NCBI GenBank assembly: GCA_030950925.1
Contig: JAUZQO010000047.1
Span: forward strand, 1 to 59,044
Direction of reading: 5' to 3'
DNA: 59,044 bases
From: Mariprofundaceae bacterium
GTDB lineage: Bacteria > Pseudomonadota > Zetaproteobacteria > Mariprofundales > Mariprofundaceae
The notes beneath the pieces are model-generated. The model did not search any database and had not been told where the DNA came from. It worked only from the letters and a program-made list of their open reading frames with translations. Numbering within the stretch: position 1 is the first letter of the stretch; each line of letters starts with the position of its first letter. The translations under genes were made by a program, and so were the position numbers. Shown here piece by piece: positions 19,951 through 35,664 of the stretch.

Positions 19951-20089
19951 TATAGTGATTCAAGTATTAAATCACCACGTCATTCCCGAAATATTTTATC
20001 GGGAATCTAATGGTAGATCCTCGATACAAGCATTCGAGGATGACGATTGGGGAATATGGAAATGATAGTTCTATACTTGAATGACTATA
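19951..20089. repeat. Dispersed TATAG-type element, copy C
   Basis: This is a complete 139-bp unit: TATAGTGATTCAAGTAT at 19951-19967 and ATACTTGAATGACTATA at 20073-20089 are inverted with one mismatch. Hairpin 1 is GTCATTCCCGA...TCGGGAATCTA. Hairpin 2 is GATCCTCGA...TCGAGGATGAC. It is nearly identical to copy G (32123-32259). It separates the b561 operon from the next gene. Confidence 0.85.
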
Positions 20090-25305: not shown

Positions 25306-26010
25306 ATGAATGAACTAGGCACTGCGTTATCACCCGTGCGTCATGGCATTGCCATGGGGCTTCTGGCGCTTATTTTGGGTGTATGTTGGGTTGCATATAT
25401 TGCGACTCACCATGAAAAACTACATGGCGGCTTTGAACAAGCTGAAGTACAAATCAAACAAGCACATGAACAAAAAGAAATGAAAGCCATGCAAGCTGAA
25501 ATGAGCATGGATCAGATGGATATGGAAAAATCACCGCATAGCCATGCAAAAGGTGAAGCAACGCATCATGATGAAGCCTCTGGACATGCCCATCAAGGTC
25601 AAGGGCATGGACACGGTGAAATGCATCAACATAGTCATTCAGGAAGTTTGGCAACCGATGCTATGCAGCGTTTGATTCGTGGGCATATTCATTTTATGGG
25701 TATTGGTCTGTTGGTGATTTTAATGTTGGGTCTTGTGGCAGCTACCTCCTTAAAAACATGTTGGAAAAGCGTATTTGCATGGACATTTGGTTTGGGTGCA
25801 TTGATGTATCCACCTGCATGGATTTTGATGGGTTTTCGTACCGTTGAGCTAGGGCCTGAAGCTGCGGAAGCCAGTGTGATGTGGTTGTTTGGCCCAGGTG
25901 TTGCATTATTGCTTGGCTCACTGATTGCTTTGTTTTGTGTGTTTATGTTGGAGTCTTGTGGGTGTAAAAAATCAAATTTATTTTCTTGGGCTTTTGAAAA
26001 AACTGAATAA
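25306..26010 (+). CDS. His/Met-rich membrane protein of unknown family
   Basis: This 234-residue protein has one N-terminal membrane segment (17-34). A ~90-residue soluble stretch is packed with His and Met (MSMDQMDMEKSPHSH, HAHQGQGHGHGEMHQHSH), and about three more membrane segments follow. A C-terminal LESCGCKK motif closes it. AAGGAATG precedes the ATG. I do not recognise the family. The His/Met stretch points to divalent or monovalent metal binding outside the membrane. It lies between the cytochrome-porin gene and the repeat-motif gene and may share a message with the latter. Confidence 0.65.
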   Translation: MNELGTALSPVRHGIAMGLLALILGVCWVAYIATHHEKLHGGFEQAEVQIKQAHEQKEMKAMQAEMSMDQMDMEKSPHSHAKGEATHHDEASGHAHQGQGHGHGEMHQHSHSGSLATDAMQRLIRGHIHFMGIGLLVILMLGLVAATSLKTCWKSVFAWTFGLGALMYPPAWILMGFRTVELGPEAAEASVMWLFGPGVALLLGSLIALFCVFMLESCGCKKSNLFSWAFEKTE

Positions 26011-26577: not shown

Positions 26578-26602
26578 TTGCTTGTCCTTAAGGTGTAAAA
26601 AT

Positions 26603-27010
26603 ATGATGACGGTTCATGAAGTGGCTAAAAAAATAGGCATAACATCCGATGCGGTTCGCCATTATGTGCGTATCGGTTTGTTACACCCCAAGCGAAATCC
26701 TGATAATGGTTACCGACTTTTTAGTGATGTCGATCAACATCGCTTGAGTTTCATGGTACGCGCCAAGCAGTTTGGTTTCACGCTTTCAGATATGAGAAAA
26801 ATATTTTTAGATGTGGAAGCAGGCACTTCTCCTTGTCCGCGTGTGCGTGAATTGTTGGAGAAACGTATGATGATGAACCAACAAAAAATAACTGAATTAC
26901 TGGTGATGCAAGAACGTATGCAACAAGCTCAACAAGCATGGACGGATATACCTGATGCCATGCCCAGTGATAAAATGTTGTGTCATTTGATTGAAAAAAT
27001 GGATGCTTGA
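26603..27010 (+). CDS. MerR-family metal-responsive regulator
   Basis: The ~135-residue regulator has a MerR winged helix-turn-helix (TVHEVAKKIGITSDAVRHYV, GLLHPKRNPDNGYR) and a dimerisation helix. It has a cysteine at C77 (counted from the second Met) in GTSPCPRVREL, matching the sensor Cys at that place in MerR/ZntR/CadR. A second cysteine, C126, is near the end. The two-Cys loop that CueR uses for Cu(I) is not evident, so the metal is uncertain. Start 26603 or 26606 follows AAGGTG. Three promoters in this island with MerR-type spacing are the likely targets; one overlaps this gene's stop codon. Confidence 0.85.
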   Translation: MMTVHEVAKKIGITSDAVRHYVRIGLLHPKRNPDNGYRLFSDVDQHRLSFMVRAKQFGFTLSDMRKIFLDVEAGTSPCPRVRELLEKRMMMNQQKITELLVMQERMQQAQQAWTDIPDAMPSDKMLCHLIEKMDA

Positions 27011-27038
27011 CCTATGTGTAAGGCATTGCCCTTAAAGT
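27007..27038 (+). promoter_or_regulatory. Candidate MerR-type promoter overlapping the merR stop codon
   Basis: TTGACC (27007-27012) and TAAAGT (27033-27038) are separated by 20 bases. The block GCTTGACCTATGTGTA matches the site before the P-type ATPase gene except for one base. It would drive the APC-type transporter / CopA / CopB unit starting at 27359, reading through the nested repeat between them. Confidence 0.5.
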
Positions 27039-27358: not shown

Positions 27359-28525
27359 ATGAAAGAACAGACCGATTTGAATCCATCCGAATATCGAACC
27401 TTTCGACAAGTCATGCCTGCCATGAGCATCCCCTTAGCCTCTATTTTTGGCAGTGGTTTTTTGGTGATTGTCCCCGTGTTGGTGAGCAGTGTGGGCGCGT
27501 ATGCTGCACTGGCGATGTTGGTGGTGGCTTTGGTCGCCTTTCAGGCAGGGGCTGTGGTTCGTCATAATATTATTTATGCAGAACCTGTGTTGGCAGCAGA
27601 AGAAAATCGCATGGCATTGATGGTGGAACGCTTATCATCGTTGGCACTTGTGGCTGCTTATGTTGTCTCGGTATGTTTATATATTCATATTTTAAGTTCG
27701 TTTGTATTGAGTGCTTTTGCTATGGATTCTGATTTTAACAAAAGCTTGCTGACCAGTATGGTGATTGGTTTTATCACCATGATGGGTGTGATGGGTGGCT
27801 TAAAACCCTTGGAAAAAATGGAAAGTATCGCCTTGTATGTCACTTTGGCTATTTTAACCGTATTACTTTTGGGCTTTGCCCTTTACGACATCAATCACTA
27901 TGTGAATGTGGGAAGTTTTACCATGCCAGCCATGCCCCAACGTTCCACTTGGGAGATGATTACCATTGTGGCTGGTACATTGATTGTCGTGCAAGGCTTT
28001 GAAACCACACGTTATTTGGGGCGACAATTTGATGCATGGACACGGGTTTTGGCTTCGCGTTACTCTCAATATCTATCACTCACGGTGTATGTGGTATTTG
28101 TGGTCTTGGCTTTGCCCGTTGTGAGCATCCTGCATGGTGATTATGAAGGCAATAGTCTGATTCTTTTGGCCGCAGAGGTCTCCGCACTGTTGGTTTCTCC
28201 CTTGATTGTTGCGGCCGCTTTATCTCAGTTTTCTGCCGCCGTCGCCGATACCTTAGCCGCTGCTGAAAATATGTCGGAAATCACCCATAATCGTATCAGG
28301 CAACGCTGGGGATATGTGATGGTGGGTAGCATTGCCATCATGTTGGCATGGTCTGGATCTATTTTTGAAATTATTACCTTAGCATCGCGAGCCTTTGCTT
28401 TGTATTATTTTCTTCAATGTATTGTGGGTTTTATCGTCTCTGAAAGTCAGTTTGAACGGGGGCGTTGTGTGCTTGTTGGATTGGCGCTGTTGTTTGTGCT
28501 GATTTTTGCTGTTCCCGCAGGATGA
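27359..28525 (+). CDS. APC-superfamily-like transporter of unknown substrate
   Basis: This 388-residue protein has about ten to eleven hydrophobic segments. The broken first helix SIFGSGFLVIVPVL (glycine-rich, like the GSGxx of LeuT-fold transporters) and segment 6 with VVQGFETTRYLG resemble the amino-acid/polyamine/organocation superfamily. No cytoplasmic domain is present. AAGGA lies nine bases before the ATG. The next gene, the multicopper oxidase, starts 24 bases after its stop, so the two are surely cotranscribed. A transporter of this fold in a copper unit could import a ligand or metal complex. I cannot name a family. Confidence 0.6.
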   Translation: MKEQTDLNPSEYRTFRQVMPAMSIPLASIFGSGFLVIVPVLVSSVGAYAALAMLVVALVAFQAGAVVRHNIIYAEPVLAAEENRMALMVERLSSLALVAAYVVSVCLYIHILSSFVLSAFAMDSDFNKSLLTSMVIGFITMMGVMGGLKPLEKMESIALYVTLAILTVLLLGFALYDINHYVNVGSFTMPAMPQRSTWEMITIVAGTLIVVQGFETTRYLGRQFDAWTRVLASRYSQYLSLTVYVVFVVLALPVVSILHGDYEGNSLILLAAEVSALLVSPLIVAAALSQFSAAVADTLAAAENMSEITHNRIRQRWGYVMVGSIAIMLAWSGSIFEIITLASRAFALYYFLQCIVGFIVSESQFERGRCVLVGLALLFVLIFAVPAG

Positions 28526-28549
28526 ATGCGTATCAAAAAGGAGAGATGG

Positions 28550-30247
28550 ATGAATCAAAAAAATAATCCCCTACGATCTAGTCGGCGAACCTTTGTAAAA
28601 GGCATGGCAACGGCGGCTGCCTGCTTGCCTTTGATGGGCGCACTGTCTCCTTTGGCTTGGGCAGGTGAGATGCTCTCCTCCCAAACGGCATTAAGGGGTA
28701 GCGTGTTTGATTTGGTGATTGCGCCGATGCGGGTCAATTTAACGGGGAAAGAAAGTATGGCCACAACCGTCAATGGACTGCTTCCAGGTCCTGTCATCAC
28801 CCTTAAAGAAGGTGATGATGTGACCATTCGCGTCACCAATCGCTTGGATGAAATGACCACCATTCACTGGCATGGCATTATTCTTGATTCGGGTATGGAT
28901 GGCGTACCAGGTATTAGTTTTCCAGGCATTGCACCTGGGGAAACCTTTGTGCATCACTTTAAAGTTGTTCAACATGGTACCTATTGGTATCACGCCCACA
29001 CACTCGCTGAACAAACAGGTGTCTATGGTGCGCTGATTATTGAGCCGCGCGATGCTTCGAATGATATGACATTTGATCGGGATTACCCAATTGTACTCAG
29101 TGACTGGACAGATGAAAACCCCGTGGATGTTTTTTTGAACCTGAAAAAATTGGGGGGCTATTATAATCAGCGCAACTTGACGGCATCGGATTTTTTCGAT
29201 GATGCCACTCACCTTGGTTTAGGGGCAGCGTTTGCCAAAAGAAAGGTATGGAATGAGACACGCATGAGTCCGAATGATTTTAGTGATGTTTCGGCTGCGA
29301 CCTATACATATTTGATGAATGGTCACAGCCCCAATGGAAATTGGCATGGTATGGCGAAAGCAGGAGAGCGGGTGCGTCTGCGCCTGATTGGTGCGGCGAC
29401 AGCAACCTTCTTTGATGTGCGCATTCCAGGTCTAAAAATAACGGTTATTGCGACAGATGGTCAGCCAGTGAAGCCAGTGGTGGTGGATGAGTTGCGTATT
29501 GGATCGGGTGAAACCTATGATGTGATGGTGACGATTCCTGATAAACAAGCCTATACGATTTTTGCGCAATCCATGGATCGTTCGGGTTATGCTTGTGGTA
29601 CTTTATCCGCAGAAAAGGGGGGGAAAGCTGCCGTGCCTGCTTTGGATCTACCTGTACCGCTGGACATGGTGGATATGATGGGTGCGATGTCACAACAGGG
29701 AAAATGGAAACAGATGGCGATGCAACACAAACCCAATCATTCACGCGATGAATATGGGGCAGGTGTGGATATGCGTGTAGATTACCCGAGGGTCAACTTG
29801 GATGATCCAGGTCCTGGGCTGCGCAACAATGGACGGCGTGTGCTGAGTTATGCAGATTTGAAAAGTATCCATACACCGCGTGATACGCGTCCACCAACGC
29901 AGGAAATCGAATTGCATTTAACGGGCAATATGGAGCGTTTTATTTGGTCGATGGACGGCTTAACCTTGAATGAAGCTGCCCCCATTCACTTTCGCAAAGG
30001 TGAACGTATTCGTGTTATTTTTCATAATGACAGCACCATGATTCACCCCATGCACTTGCATGGTATGTGGTCGGATTTAGAATCTCCTGAAGGTGGTTTC
30101 CAAGTTCGCAAACATACCATTGCTGTGCAACCTGCGCAGCGTGTGAGCATGTTGGTGACGACCGATGCGGAAGGGCGTTGGGCTTTTCATTGTCATCTTT
30201 TATATCACATGGCAGCGGGTATGTTTCGTGAGGTGGTGGTCGCATGA
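28550..30247 (+). CDS. copA: Multicopper oxidase CopA/PcoA (Tat-exported)
   Basis: The 565-residue periplasmic enzyme starts at ATG 28550 behind AAGGAG. The Tat signal SRRTFVK is at 10-16. Copper-site motifs in order are IHWHG, YWYHAH, HPMHLHG and HCHLLYHMAAGM, giving the type 1, 2 and 3 copper ligands. It oxidises Cu(I) to less toxic Cu(II) and can sequester copper. Unlike the plasmid PcoA/CopA proteins it lacks long MGGM repeats. It overlaps copB by four bases. This CopA is an oxidase and is not the P-type ATPase of the same name encoded at 32422. Confidence 0.92.
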   Translation: MNQKNNPLRSSRRTFVKGMATAAACLPLMGALSPLAWAGEMLSSQTALRGSVFDLVIAPMRVNLTGKESMATTVNGLLPGPVITLKEGDDVTIRVTNRLDEMTTIHWHGIILDSGMDGVPGISFPGIAPGETFVHHFKVVQHGTYWYHAHTLAEQTGVYGALIIEPRDASNDMTFDRDYPIVLSDWTDENPVDVFLNLKKLGGYYNQRNLTASDFFDDATHLGLGAAFAKRKVWNETRMSPNDFSDVSAATYTYLMNGHSPNGNWHGMAKAGERVRLRLIGAATATFFDVRIPGLKITVIATDGQPVKPVVVDELRIGSGETYDVMVTIPDKQAYTIFAQSMDRSGYACGTLSAEKGGKAAVPALDLPVPLDMVDMMGAMSQQGKWKQMAMQHKPNHSRDEYGAGVDMRVDYPRVNLDDPGPGLRNNGRRVLSYADLKSIHTPRDTRPPTQEIELHLTGNMERFIWSMDGLTLNEAAPIHFRKGERIRVIFHNDSTMIHPMHLHGMWSDLESPEGGFQVRKHTIAVQPAQRVSMLVTTDAEGRWAFHCHLLYHMAAGMFREVVVA

Positions 30248-31092
30248 AGCTATTAAAAAGTTTGGCTCTTTTGAGCATGGCTGGTGGTTTATGGGTGGCT
30301 TCTGCTTCGGCTGAAGGCATGAATATGCAAGGGCAAGTGATGAAAGGTTCCATGCAAGGCGGTAGTGCGCCTATGGGTGCGCGCAGTTCGAATTACTCGG
30401 ATGGCTATAAGTATCGCCACATGAAAGGTTGGGAAGAAACCGATACCATCCGTATTGATAAAGTGTTGGCAGATCAAACAGAATACCGTGTCAATAACCA
30501 TGGTAACAATAGTTTACGCTATGATACACAAGCTTGGCGAGGTACGAATTATCATAAGTTGTGGTTGAAACTGGAAGGCTCGGATGAGGTGACAACGAGA
30601 GCAGGTAATATGGAATTACAGGTGTTGGATAGCCGCTCGATTGATTCATTTTGGGAATTACAAATGGGTTTGAGATATGATCGGGTGTATAGCCCCATCA
30701 TCACCCGTCAACGCTTGCTGGCAGTGATTGGTTTTCAAGGTTTAGCACCGTATTGGTTTGATGTTGAACCTGCGCTATTTATCAGTGATAAAGGTGATGT
30801 ATCGGCGCGTGTGAGAGCAACGTATGATCTTTTATTGACACAGAAGTTGATATTGCGACCGCGTTTAGAAATCAATGCTGCCATGCGTGGAAGCTCGCAA
30901 TTTGATGTCGGTCAAGGTCTTAATGATGTTCAATGGGGCTTGCGTTTGCGCTATGAAATCACGCGTAAATTTGCACCGTATATTGGTATCGCCAAGCAGC
31001 AACAATTTGGTGCAACGGCCAACTTATTGCGTGCAGCAGGTGGAGCAAGCAATAATATATCTGTGATAACAGGTGTGCGCTGGTGGTTTTGA
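30244..31092 (+). CDS. copB: Outer-membrane copper-resistance protein CopB/PcoB
   Basis: The 282-residue protein has a signal peptide (cleaved near SASAEG), a short Met-rich N-terminal stretch (GMNMQGQVMKGSM) and a beta-barrel domain with the CopB pattern. WLKLEGSDE, QMGLRYD, FQGLAPYWFDVEPALFIS and GLRLRYEITRKFAPYIG are characteristic, and it ends in WWF as outer-membrane barrels do. It accompanies the multicopper oxidase, with overlapping stop and start (ATGA). The Met-rich region is much shorter than in plasmid PcoB. Confidence 0.88.
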   Translation: MKLLKSLALLSMAGGLWVASASAEGMNMQGQVMKGSMQGGSAPMGARSSNYSDGYKYRHMKGWEETDTIRIDKVLADQTEYRVNNHGNNSLRYDTQAWRGTNYHKLWLKLEGSDEVTTRAGNMELQVLDSRSIDSFWELQMGLRYDRVYSPIITRQRLLAVIGFQGLAPYWFDVEPALFISDKGDVSARVRATYDLLLTQKLILRPRLEINAAMRGSSQFDVGQGLNDVQWGLRLRYEITRKFAPYIGIAKQQQFGATANLLRAAGGASNNISVITGVRWWF

Positions 31093-31124
31093 GTATAAAT
31101 AATTGAGATAGATAGGTGGGTAAA

Positions 31125-31580
31125 ATGAAAAAAATCATCATGTTGGTGGCAATCATGGGCTTGATGGCCGCTTGTTCCACCACACCAAAGCTTGAGAAAA
31201 GTGATGAATCGAAACACAGCAATGTAAAGCAAGTGATGGATCATATCCATTCTTTTTATGTATCTCGGATTGGGCTTGATGATGGCTATGAAGTTATTTT
31301 TCATGTCATGCCTGCGCCTGAAGGTGAGAGTTTTAGTCGTGAAAATTATCATTTGATGGTGAGTATTAAAAAAGATGGGAAAATCATGGAAGGTTTAAAA
31401 GTTTATTCGGAAATTCATCATGCCGATGGTACATCTGAATCCAAGGTGTTGATGATGGTGATGAATGCGTGGTATATGACAGCTTACCATTTGGCGCGTG
31501 ATTCAGGCAAACATGAGATGATTGTTTCATTTGAACATGATGGTCGCGCATATTTTTCAGGGATTAAGTACCCAGAATGA
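31125..31580 (+). CDS. Lipoprotein paralogue of the 20150-20641 Met/His-rich protein
   Basis: The 151-residue lipoprotein has a lipobox MAAC (Cys 17). The start at 31125 follows AGGTGGG; 31116 is an alternative. The mature domain matches the product of 20150 position by position: DGYEVIFHVMPAPEG, YHLMVSIKKDGKIME, SESKVLMMVMNAWYMTAYHL, KHEMIVSFEHDGRAYFSG and a final IKYPE. The Met-rich N-terminal stretch of that protein is missing here. One is soluble and one is membrane-anchored. The function is not known. Its stop overlaps the start of the epsilon-like gene by four bases. Confidence 0.65.
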   Translation: MKKIIMLVAIMGLMAACSTTPKLEKSDESKHSNVKQVMDHIHSFYVSRIGLDDGYEVIFHVMPAPEGESFSRENYHLMVSIKKDGKIMEGLKVYSEIHHADGTSESKVLMMVMNAWYMTAYHLARDSGKHEMIVSFEHDGRAYFSGIKYPE

Positions 31581-32023
31581 CATGTTCAACAATGGATGTT
31601 CTGATTACAACGGTGAAGAAAGAAATTTACCGTCATCGAGCTTGTTCGGTAACGGCAACAACGGCTGAGGGTGAGTTGAAAATCATGCCTTCGCATGCGC
31701 CTTTATTGGCGGTTTTAAGGCCTGGTATTCTGATTGTTGAATGTATGCCTGATTGCCAAGGTGCAGACGTTCGATGTGATTCGATGGTTGTTTTGGGTGG
31801 GTTTATAGAAGTTCAACCTGATAGCGTCATTGTGCTTGCTGATAGTGTTGAACGAGCCGATAATCTAAATGAACAGATGGCAGCACAGGCTGTTGAACAA
31901 ACGAAAAAAGATTGGGAAGTGGCTTCAAAAGAAGAACAGGAAAAACAAAGACAAGCACATATCGCATTGGAAATTGCATTGGCTAAAATGTACCTTGTTA
32001 AAAATCGGTTGAAAAAAATGTAA
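31577..32023 (+). CDS. Orphan ATP-synthase epsilon-subunit-like protein with extra cysteines
   Basis: This 148-residue protein follows the F1 epsilon pattern closely. A beta-sandwich has AEGELKIMPSHAPLLAVLRP and then GGFIEVQPDSVIVLADSVER, followed by a C-terminal pair of charged helices (MAAQAVEQTKKDWEV..., ALEIALAKMYLVKNRL). No other ATP synthase gene is nearby. It overlaps the preceding lipoprotein gene by four bases inside a copper unit. It carries five cysteines (MTCS, RACS, VECMPDC, RCDS), several in the loop between the two signatures. A regulator or inhibitor role towards an ATPase, or a metal-sensing variant, are inferences. Confidence 0.75.
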   Translation: MTCSTMDVLITTVKKEIYRHRACSVTATTAEGELKIMPSHAPLLAVLRPGILIVECMPDCQGADVRCDSMVVLGGFIEVQPDSVIVLADSVERADNLNEQMAAQAVEQTKKDWEVASKEEQEKQRQAHIALEIALAKMYLVKNRLKKM

Positions 32024-32127
32024 TGTTTCTTCTCTTGGTGGCACTGGGTTCAAGTGGTTTCCTTAATGGATGTTACACACTTCAGCTTTATCCTCGTTCC
32101 CATACTCCTGCGTGGGAACGGATATAG
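32023..32127 (+). pseudogene. Short lipoprotein frame probably truncated by repeats
   Basis: ATG 32023 overlaps the previous stop by one base. The 34-residue frame has a signal-like start MFLLLVALGSSGFL with lipobox LNGC at Cys 17. It then runs into the CGTTCCCA hairpin (32095-32120) and ends at the TAG made by the first bases of repeat copy G. The last ten residues are thus encoded by repeat DNA. The likely reading is a lipoprotein gene whose 3' part was lost or displaced by these insertions. It could also be a chance frame. Confidence 0.4.
32095..32120. repeat. CGTTCCCA...TGGGAACG palindrome
   Basis: Perfect 8-base arms (32095-32102 and 32113-32120) surround a 10-base loop. Hairpins of this CGTTCCCA/TGGGAACG kind are scattered in many proteobacterial genomes. 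Here it abuts repeat copy G by two bases, so one element lies at the edge of another. Confidence 0.65.
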
Positions 32128-32259
32128 TGATTCAAGTATTAAATCACCACGTCATTCCCGAAATATTTTATCGGGAATCTAATGATAGACCCTCGATACA
32201 AGCACTCGAGGGTGACGATTGGATGATAGAAATGATAGTTCTATACTTGAATGACTATA
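32123..32259. repeat. Dispersed TATAG-type element, copy G
   Basis: This is a complete 137-bp unit with ends TATAGTGATTCAAGTAT and ATACTTGAATGACTATA. It is almost the same as copy C (19951-20089), but the second hairpin has C32190 and G32212 where copy C has T20018 and A20040, so the pairing is kept. It occupies the middle of the 398-base gap before the P-type ATPase gene. The rest of that gap holds the CGTTCCCA palindrome and the promoter at 32331. Confidence 0.85.
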
Positions 32260-32330
32260 TGTCTGAACGAGCATATCAGTTGTATGTACAAATATACTCA
32301 AAATCCATGCCATAAGTGATGGATGAACGC

Positions 32331-32362
32331 TTGACTTATGTGTAGGACATAAGCTTTATACT
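32331..32362 (+). promoter_or_regulatory. Candidate MerR-type promoter of the P-type ATPase gene
   Basis: TTGACT (32331-32336) and TATACT (32357-32362) are 20 bases apart. CTTATGT and ACATAAG form a perfect 7-base dyad between them, with a 5-base centre. Long spacers with a dyad between -35 and -10 are the mark of MerR-activated promoters. It is the best of three such sites in the island. The ATPase ATG lies 60 bases downstream behind GGAGG. Confidence 0.6.
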
Positions 32363-32421: not shown

Positions 32422-35001
32422 ATGGTATATATCGACCCTGTTTGTGGGATGAATGTCAAAGAAGGTTCAGAACATGAACGCCAATTCCGTGGTGTGGATT
32501 ATCATTTTTGTAGTGGACACTGCTTGGATAAGTTTGGTCATTCACCCGAGGACTATCTCGGTGATCATATAAGCCATGATCCTGTCTGTGGCATGAAGGT
32601 GAGCCGTGAATCTATCAACCATATTCAACACAACGAACATGATTATTATTTTTGCTCTCACCATTGTGTTGAAAAGTTTTCTAAAAGCCCCATGGACTAT
32701 GAAGGCAAAGATAAGGCATGTGAACATCATCATACTCCGAAAAAAACACAGTCTGACAACCCCGATGCCATGTATTTTTGCCCGATGTGTCCAGGGCAAG
32801 AACAGAAAGGTGCGGGGACGTGTAAGGTATGTGGTATGGCTTTGGAGCCCATGGCTGCGCCGAGTTTAAACGAAACAACAGAGTATTTTTGCCCCATGCA
32901 CTTGGATGTTGTGAGCGATGCACCCGGTTCATGCCCAAAATGTGGTATGTCATTGGAGGCAAGAACCATTTTAGGAGAAGAAAAGAACGAAGAGCTTGAT
33001 AATATGAGCCGACGTTTGAAATTTAGTACGCTTTTATCGGCACCTATTTTTCTATTGGCGATGGTCGCGGATTTAGTACCATCATGGTTGCCTAGTGGTT
33101 TAAGCATGCGCAGTGTGCAATGGATTGAGTTTGCTTTGGCAACGCCTGTCATTTGGTGGGGTGGCTGGCCATTTTTTGAACGCTTTGCTTTATCGGTCAA
33201 AACTTGGAATTTGAATATGTTCACCTTGGTGGGTTTGGGTGTGGGTGTGGCATGGTTTTATAGTGTTGTCGCACTTCTCTTCCCCAGTTTTTTTCCTCCT
33301 GTCATGCAATCAGAAGAAGGGTTGGTGGGGGTGTATTTTGAAGCGGGGGCAGTGATTACAGCCTTGGTATTGTTGGGGCAAGTACTGGAGCTTCGCGCTC
33401 GCTCACGCACCAATGAAGCGATCAAGATTTTACTGGGTATGACACCGAAAACAGCACGTTTGGTGAAAAAAGATGGTTCTGAATCCGATGTATCACTCGA
33501 AGATGTGGTGGTGGGTGATATGTTGCGTATTCGTCCTGGTGAAAAAGTACCTGTGGATGGCGTGGTGTTGGAAGGAACAAGCCTTGTTGATGAGTCCATG
33601 GTCAGTGGTGAGCCATTGGCCGTTGAAAAATTATCAGGCGAACCTTTGATTGGTGCGACAGTGAATGGCAATGGGGCATTGTTGATGCGTGCTGAAAAAG
33701 TAGGTGCAGATACTTTGCTATCGCAAATTGTTAGCATGGTTGCGGAAGCACAACGCTCACGCGCACCTATTCAAAAAATGGCGGATACTGTGGCAGGTTA
33801 TTTTGTACCTGCGGTTGTGGGCGTGGCATTGCTCACCTTTGCCGTATGGATGTTGATGGGGCCTGATCCACGTTTGGCACATGCGATTGTCAATGCTGTG
33901 GCAGTGCTGATTATTGCTTGTCCATGTGCTTTGGGTTTGGCAACACCGATTTCAATCATGGTTGGAACAGGGCGCGGCGCAACGGCAGGTGTTTTGATTA
34001 AAAATGCTGAAGCTTTGGAAGTGATGGAAAAAGTAAATACTGTGGTGGTCGATAAAACAGGCACATTAACCGAAGGTAAGCCCTCATTGACAACCATCAA
34101 GACGGTGGGAGGAATGAGCGAACATGATGTGTTGCAGTTTGCTGCCAGTTTGGAGCGTGTGAGTGAGCATCCATTGGCAGCCGCGATTGTGGCAGGGGCA
34201 GAAGAAAAATCGCTCACACTGTTGGATGTGGATGACTTTTTGGCAGTGACAGGGAAGGGCGTGCAAGCTCATATCATCCATGATGGGCAGGGCAAACGTA
34301 TCAGTTTGGGCAATGCCAAGATGATGCAAGCCTATGGTGTCGATATTCTAACCGTGAAAAACATGGTGGAAGCGCATCAAAAAACAGGTGAAACTGTGAT
34401 GTATTTGGCTGTGGAAAAAGAATTGGTGGGAATATTGGGCGTATCTGACCCCATTAAATCTTCGACACCTGAAGCGATTCAAGCCTTGCATGCGGAAGGC
34501 ATTGAGGTGGTAATGCTTACAGGGGATAATCATCATACAGCTGCAGCAGTCGCAGAAAAGCTAGGCATCCAGCGTTTTGAAGCCGATGTCCTGCCCGATC
34601 AAAAAGCAGCGGTGATCAAAGCTTTGCAAGATGAAGGGAAAACAGTGGCGATGGCAGGTGATGGTATCAATGATGCACCCGCTTTGGCGCAAGCGCATGT
34701 CGGCATTGCCATGGGCACGGGTACGGATGTGGCGATGGAATCCGCAGGTATTACACTTGTGAAAGGTGAGCTAACAGGCATTTTACGTGCTGTACGTTTA
34801 TCACGTGCGACCATGAAAAATATTCGTCAAAATCTTTTCTTTGCCTTTATTTATAACTCGGCTGGTGTACCGATTGCTGCGGGTGTCCTTTATCCCTTTT
34901 TTGGTTTGTTATTGTCGCCCATGATTGCAGCGGCTGCGATGAGTTTTAGCTCTGTATCGGTGATTAGCAATGCGCTTCGTTTGCGCAAGGCGAAATTATA
35001 A
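32422..35001 (+). CDS. copA: Copper-type P1B ATPase with two YHS and two heavy-metal-binding domains
   Basis: This 859-residue inner-membrane pump has four metal-type modules before the first membrane helix. There are two YHS domains (DPVCGMNV at 5-12 with [14 protein letters not shown] at 53-60 with FCSHHC) and two heavy-metal-binding domains (CPMCPG...CKVCGM at 120-139; CPMHLD...CPKCGM at 157-176). Transport and catalysis motifs are CPC at 500-502, the phosphorylated D544 in DKTGTLT, and [10 protein letters not shown] near the end. CPC with the YHS set points to Cu(I)/Ag(I) export. The CBS gene begins at the base after its stop. Confidence 0.93.
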
Positions 35002-35664
35002 ATGTTTACCGTTTATGGACCAGGTTTTGCAGACCCGATTCGCTTGGAAAAATTATTACAACGCCCCGATGTGAGTAAATTATCGGCAACGCAAGCCAGC
35101 CGTGCGATGGATGCTCAAGATATTCCTGCCAAGGAATCATGGGCAGATATTTCAATCAAACCCAAAGATGAAAAAAAACAAAGGCATCAAAAACAAAGGC
35201 ATCAAGCGTTGCCCACTTACACCACTTCACAACCGAAAGCGCCTGTATTCAAAGCAGAACAAGTGATGACGAAACCAGTGGTTTTTGTATATCCCGATAC
35301 GCCTGCGATGGAAGCATGGAAAATGTTTGATCATCATGGTTTTCGACACCTTCCTGTATTATCCGAAGAGAAGAGGTTGCTTGGCATTCTATCGGATAGG
35401 GATTTGATGCGATGTCGTTGTGAACATAGTGTTTGTATGCACTGTGGACAAGATAAAGAGGAGCTGTTGGTGGATGCTTTGATGCATGATCGGGTTGTGA
35501 CGGCAGAGTTGGAGACCGATGCTCGTGCCATTGCCCGCCTTTTTGTCGAAAGCCGTATCGGTGCAGTGCCTATTGTGGAACATCAACAGCTTAAGGGTAT
35601 TGTCACACGCAGTGATTTACTTCGAGCGGTGATGCATGATTTTCATTTGAATGTTTGGATGTAA
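35002..35664 (+). CDS. CBS-pair protein with a Cys cluster, coupled to the P-type ATPase
   Basis: This 220-residue soluble protein has a ~85-residue N-terminal part rich in charge (KDEKKQRHQKQRHQ), then two CBS motifs (VMTKPVVFVYPDTPAMEAWK to GILSDRDLMR; ALMHDRVVTAELETDARAIA to GIVTRSDLL). Between them is CRCEHSVCMHCGQ, a CxC...CxxC group that could bind metal. CBS pairs usually bind adenine nucleotides. Start codon and preceding stop are contiguous, so expression is tied to the ATPase. A nucleotide- and metal-sensing partner of the ATPase is an inference. The CBS assignment itself is secure. Confidence 0.8.
   Translation: MFTVYGPGFADPIRLEKLLQRPDVSKLSATQASRAMDAQDIPAKESWADISIKPKDEKKQRHQKQRHQALPTYTTSQPKAPVFKAEQVMTKPVVFVYPDTPAMEAWKMFDHHGFRHLPVLSEEKRLLGILSDRDLMRCRCEHSVCMHCGQDKEELLVDALMHDRVVTAELETDARAIARLFVESRIGAVPIVEHQQLKGIVTRSDLLRAVMHDFHLNVWM

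Follow-up and report, generated by a model that had tools for sequence, protein, structure and literature searches.

The genome of this Mariprofundaceae bacterium carries, in addition to the epsilon gene of its ATP synthase operon, a second F1 epsilon gene embedded in a copper-resistance locus. Sequence comparison identifies this orphan epsilon as an old zetaproteobacterial paralogue of the subunit, present in some of these iron-oxidising marine bacteria and marked by a cysteine-bearing loop. We place about even confidence in the reading that it serves the housekeeping F1Fo-ATP synthase as an accessory epsilon, is produced under stress and responds through its thiol loop. The gene lies at positions 31577–32023 on the forward strand of the window, the whole 59,044-nucleotide stretch of DNA analysed here, and encodes 148 residues.

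The product matches the Pfam family PF02823 over residues 6–90 (E=3.5e-19), its 69 bits exceeding the gathering score of 27, as expected of the beta-sandwich of AtpC. It also passes the NCBIfam equivalog cut-off of TIGR01216 (ATP_synt_epsi), with 85 bits against 67.25. The AF2 model (mean pLDDT 92.5) comprises ten strands and two C-terminal helices at residues 99–115 and 121–147, and its top Foldseek match is the E. coli epsilon structure 1AQT (TM 0.83/0.90). The orphan epsilon is thus predicted to be a complete epsilon fold, with a beta-sandwich and a two-helix C-terminal arm. It has its fold, length class, core motifs and two-helix arm in common with canonical F1 epsilon (AtpC; E. coli 1AQT, Bacillus PS3 2E5Y). 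Unlike AtpC, it resides outside the atp operon, coexists with a canonical copy and has stress operons as neighbours.

The original prediction described an epsilon-like product with five cysteines, three of them in one loop, and no other ATP synthase genes nearby. Pfam, NCBIfam and the translation, which places the cysteines at C3, C23, C56, C60 and C67, agree with the first statement; the second also holds, as the remaining ATP synthase genes lie on contig 25 of an assembly of 75 contigs (96.9% complete). The one further PF02823 gene is located there too, at C25:18113, where it comes next after atpD within a complete atp operon. This is the true atpC, and the orphan gene, which neither follows atpD nor is the only epsilon of the genome, is rejected as sole atpC. 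Matches to PF00006 comprise one alpha/beta pair and two others, whose size and place fit FliI and Rho. With a separate canonical atpC and a single F1, the orphan gene is an extra epsilon.

N-type F1Fo ATPases likewise bring a second epsilon into a genome, since each of their operons encodes an epsilon and may be transferred horizontally. We nevertheless regard a remnant of such a second operon as next to impossible, and reject it on the score of 15.9 bits with the N-type epsilon model TIGR03166, far below its cut-off of 100.1. In contrast to an N-type epsilon, the orphan gene is not accompanied by other ATPase genes and the genome has no second beta, while the tree described below joins it to canonical zetaproteobacterial epsilons.

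A profile built from orphan epsilons (A1) and searched against 78 zetaproteobacterial genomes recovered 28 orphan genes in 26 genomes, each of which also has a lower-scoring canonical copy. Full-length orphans score 154–233 bits, whereas no other copy exceeds 141; 27 of the 28 are full copies, the remaining one (G087) being cut by a contig end. When 398 genomes from across the phylum were searched with this profile, the listed matches from other lineages reached no more than 115 bits, and two peptide patterns applied to 84,980 species genomes found orphans only in Zetaproteobacteria. In a tree of 90 rows that includes 27 long orphans and 56 canonical zetaproteobacterial epsilons, all 27 orphans form one clade (support 100/99) adjoining the 56 canonical sequences, and none of 500 shuffles was as clustered. 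This arrangement is consistent with a single early duplication, after which copies were lost or moved, with transfer also possible. The dN/dS estimates in three orphan pairs (approximately 0.13, 0.11 and 0.12) indicate that the gene is under purifying selection, while its patchy presence marks it as dispensable. One Mariprofundus MAG (S139_64, G083) has three orphan epsilon genes (L079, L087 and L090) in three different contexts.

Two routes of spread were considered and rejected. For a plasmid-borne family, a tblastn search of plasmids gave 29 records, many of them of chromosome size, of which all 29 fall below 60% identity and none resembles the clade. A recent transfer of the copper island between G000 and G005 does not hold, as the atp region of the two genomes is about as similar as the locus itself (about 93–96% identity in each case), so the low dS at the epsilon locus is not special.

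The paralogue may also be a redundant duplicate, a spare epsilon for F1 assembly or dosage that rides in accessory islands, its cysteines forming a structural metal site only. Such a reading draws on lone extra epsilons without a common context in three other Pseudomonadota genomes, and on tandem copies in three gammaproteobacteria. Against it stand the age of the zetaproteobacterial clade, its own conserved loop, the purifying selection and the recurrence in related stress operons, and we consider it quite unlikely. The tandem second epsilons follow atpC in an Alteromonadaceae MAG, Pokkaliibacter plantistimulans and Marinomonas ostreistagni (L154, L155 and L156); they are duplicated epsilons like the orphans, but lie inside the atp operon, occupy a separate tree branch and have no cysteine loop. 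The lone copies (L177, L178 and L179) have no beta nearby. In six other Pseudomonadota genomes with two epsilons, beta adjoins nine of the 12 loci, the other three being these lone copies.

What sets the clade apart from AtpC is an insertion in the beta6-beta7 loop, which makes the cysteine-bearing loop 5–7 residues longer than that of canonical epsilon. After the RI(x) motif, canonical zetaproteobacterial epsilons have 7–8 loop residues and orphans 12–20. In the window, the loop reads C56-x3-C60-x6-C67 (31742–31777, forward strand) and is situated between the strands at residues 50–55 and 68–72 of the AF2 model. At least one loop cysteine is present in 26 of the 27 orphans and at least two in 24, compared with none in any of the 56 canonical loops. 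Cysteines make up 62 of 376 loop residues versus 22 of 3548 residues elsewhere (Fisher p 8e-47, kinship ignored). The first cysteine, C56, is kept in 24 of 27 orphans, and the spacing of the others varies, with C-x5-C-x2-C-H in part of the group with PPK2 neighbours and C-x3-C-x-C at two copper loci.

A fourth thiol is possibly contributed by Cys3 (31583–31585, forward strand), since a comparable N-terminal cysteine (MKCM or MRCM) is found in nine relatives. Within a 14-member subclade, the N-terminal cysteine is associated with a three-cysteine loop (7/2/0/5, Fisher p=0.02, kinship uncorrected), which hints at a four-thiol site common to its members; the window's epsilon, with C3 and three loop cysteines, matches this count. 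C23 is present only in part of the clade.

The genes around orphan epsilons differ from locus to locus. Copper genes occur at four of the 27 loci (G000, G005, G011 and G092), which form one subclade (support 99/91). Arsenic genes occur at four (G013, G025, Mariprofundus sp. EBB-1 and M. erugo P3, the last by its ArsP permease), in varying sets of ACR3, ArsP, ArsR, ArsJ with its GAPDH, a thioredoxin-like protein, cytochrome c' and an ECF sigma factor. PPK2 is near the orphan at seven loci, at six of them downstream on the same strand, although two of the seven frames are broken in the assemblies. The binomial chance of seven such neighbours, 8e-10, is rough and indicative only, as it assumes four PPK2 genes per genome and the loci are not independent; the window's genome has one PPK2 gene. 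Phosphoketolase accompanies the orphan at four loci, three of them with acetate kinase, the order in G039 being phosphoketolase-epsilon-acetate kinase. Ion transport is represented by MarC at six loci and an ion channel at three. The loci of G026, G090 and G096 have no stress neighbour.

In the window, the genes surrounding the orphan epsilon are all on the forward strand. A membrane protein, listed as a transporter in the order of the unit and without a Pfam or NCBIfam match, is its first gene (27359–28525). It is followed by a CopA-type multicopper oxidase (28526–30247; TIGR01480, 762.9 bits, cut-off 478.95), the copper resistance protein CopB (30244–31092; PF05275, E=4.4e-75) and a small lipoprotein (31116–31580) that belongs to no known family and has a homologue near the orphan epsilon of G011. 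The lipoprotein stop overlaps the epsilon start by four bases (ATGA), and the orphan epsilon is probably the last gene of this unit. A copper P-type ATPase (32422–35001; TIGR01511, 584 bits, cut-off 397), with two YHS and two HMBD metal-binding domains (PF04945, PF19335), starts 398 bases 3' of the epsilon gene, and a two-CBS-domain protein (35002–35664; PF00571 twice) lies beyond it.

A MerR-family regulator (26582–27010) precedes the unit, and a MerR-type operator/promoter-like site, TTGACCTATGTGTAAGGCAT, is found before the unit at 27007–27026. A second operator-like copy, TTGACTTATGTGTAGGACAT, lies before the P-type ATPase at 32331–32350. This sequence has two exact matches in the window, versus 0.03 expected by shuffling. 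The site at 27007 is probably the MerR-type promoter of the unit that holds epsilon, and a separate promoter appears to serve the P-type ATPase. Scans for consensus promoters and terminators around the orphan epsilon gave nothing above shuffles. Both copies of the operator-like sequence, TTGACYTATGTGTARGRCAT, lie roughly 20 bases from a -10-like box.

On this basis, the placement of the gene inside a copper operon probably holds for the CopA/CopB unit but would not extend to the P-type ATPase with its apparently separate promoter. The original prediction further proposed a copper-sensing epsilon that tunes ATP synthase, or a domain re-used elsewhere. Our analysis favours an additional epsilon that either tunes ATP synthase or has been re-used; the copper-specific part of the proposal is not supported beyond the closest relatives. 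Neither of the two checks that could have refuted the proposal did so, as the genome has a separate canonical atpC and loop cysteines are kept among relatives. This conserved thiol cluster (24 of 27) is not tied to a metal context, and the copper setting recurs only in the nearest subclade (four loci) while the other loci differ.

A copper-specific sensor of ATP synthase would account for the three loop cysteines of all four copper-locus members, two of them with CxC, and for a possible metal-responsive promoter at the head of the unit. However, loops with two to four cysteines also occur at PPK2 or phosphoketolase loci without a metal gene, the arsenic members have 1, 0, 2 and 2 (the pair G013 and G025 accounting for the 1 and 0), and the MerR regulator is nearest ZntR rather than CueR and below every equivalog cut-off. 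Cysteine number therefore does not follow the metal setting, which points away from copper sensing and towards a more general function involving thiols, metals or redox. We find no support for copper-specific tuning as what the family does in general, any copper reading being limited to the window's subclade, and we consider a dedicated copper sensor very unlikely.

The settings of the orphan epsilons are all ones in which respiration or the proton gradient would be impaired or ATP would be made by another route, and hence a costly time for F1Fo to run in reverse. One reading covers these settings most simply, namely an extra brake expressed along with those operons. When the stress operons are on, the paralogue would compete with or replace canonical epsilon on gamma and the c-ring. 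Once bound, it would keep F1 from running backwards and consuming ATP for as long as respiration or the proton gradient is compromised. The thiol loop (C56, C60 and C67, perhaps with C3) may change stability or conformation upon soft metal binding or oxidation, with copper as one possible trigger among several.

Of the 65 columns fixed in canonical epsilons, 31 are kept in orphans, including H40, P42, G74-G75, E78, Q80, P81, D89 and R93, and these retained core motifs fit continued docking to F1. The other 34 are changed and may leave room for a role detached from F1. In that alternative, the epsilon fold has left F1 and now acts as a binding or sensing module, with transporters or regulators encoded nearby among its conceivable partners. 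The change of neighbours between loci and the alteration of half of the canonical-fixed columns are in keeping with it, and the PDB integrative model 9a4b, titled ABRB-ATPE and with an epsilon-fold chain, hints at other partners. Conversely, F1 docking and inhibition use the two-helix arm, which is intact here, and the conserved motifs PGHAPLL, GG.EVQP and LAD..ER, and no single neighbour is common to all loci; we consider a detached adaptor unlikely.

The accessory brake draws on established properties of the subunit. The C-terminal helices of epsilon can insert into F1 and halt ATP hydrolysis. In Bacillus PS3, epsilon binds ATP through an I/L-D-x-x-R-A motif; this motif is degenerate in the orphan epsilon (LNEQMA), but canonical zetaproteobacterial copies also do not have its arginine, so the motif speaks neither for nor against ATP sensing. 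ATP synthase of P. aeruginosa, expressed in E. coli, hydrolyses more ATP and synthesises less once the epsilon arm is removed (PMC12796488). The Zn-capped Fo of the same ATP synthase is an earlier example of such an enzyme being influenced by a metal ion that it binds, although its Zn site is on subunit a and not on epsilon (PMC12796488).

More specifically, and tentatively, the epsilons may be exchangeable and thiol-gated, with canonical epsilon swapped for the paralogue under metal, redox or energy stress and the loop reading soft metals or redox state to set the strength of the brake. If so, this would constitute a condition-specific exchange of a rotor subunit in a bacterial ATP synthase. 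Although the bacterial subunit has been studied extensively as an F1 inhibitor, when cells apply that brake is still debated. A natural second epsilon offers a genetic handle on this question: one enzyme would have two brakes, of which one is apparently controlled by stress. Gating of the brake by the loop, if it occurs, would connect metal or redox stress directly with ATP synthase. Searches of open PubMed Central full text found no account of epsilon genes that are orphan or have a cysteine loop, and we provisionally regard a second epsilon with a cysteine loop as not previously described.

Several further features of the copper locus merit mention. The CBS protein at 35002–35664 bears a CxCx4-5CxxC insert between its CBS domains (CRCEHSVCMHC), kept in G005 and G092, and is possibly a second energy-sensing module in the copper locus. 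Positions 32056–32290 of the window hold approximately 234 bases that are missing from the otherwise collinear G005; they contain a MITE-like intergenic repeat with more copies in the window at 19951, 4408, 27272, 14437 and 26403. Finally, an uncharacterised family of His-rich membrane proteins, whose window copy (25306–26010) has no Pfam or NCBIfam match, is found near the orphan epsilon in three genomes, the other two copies being at L025 878–1510 and L026 10249–10923.
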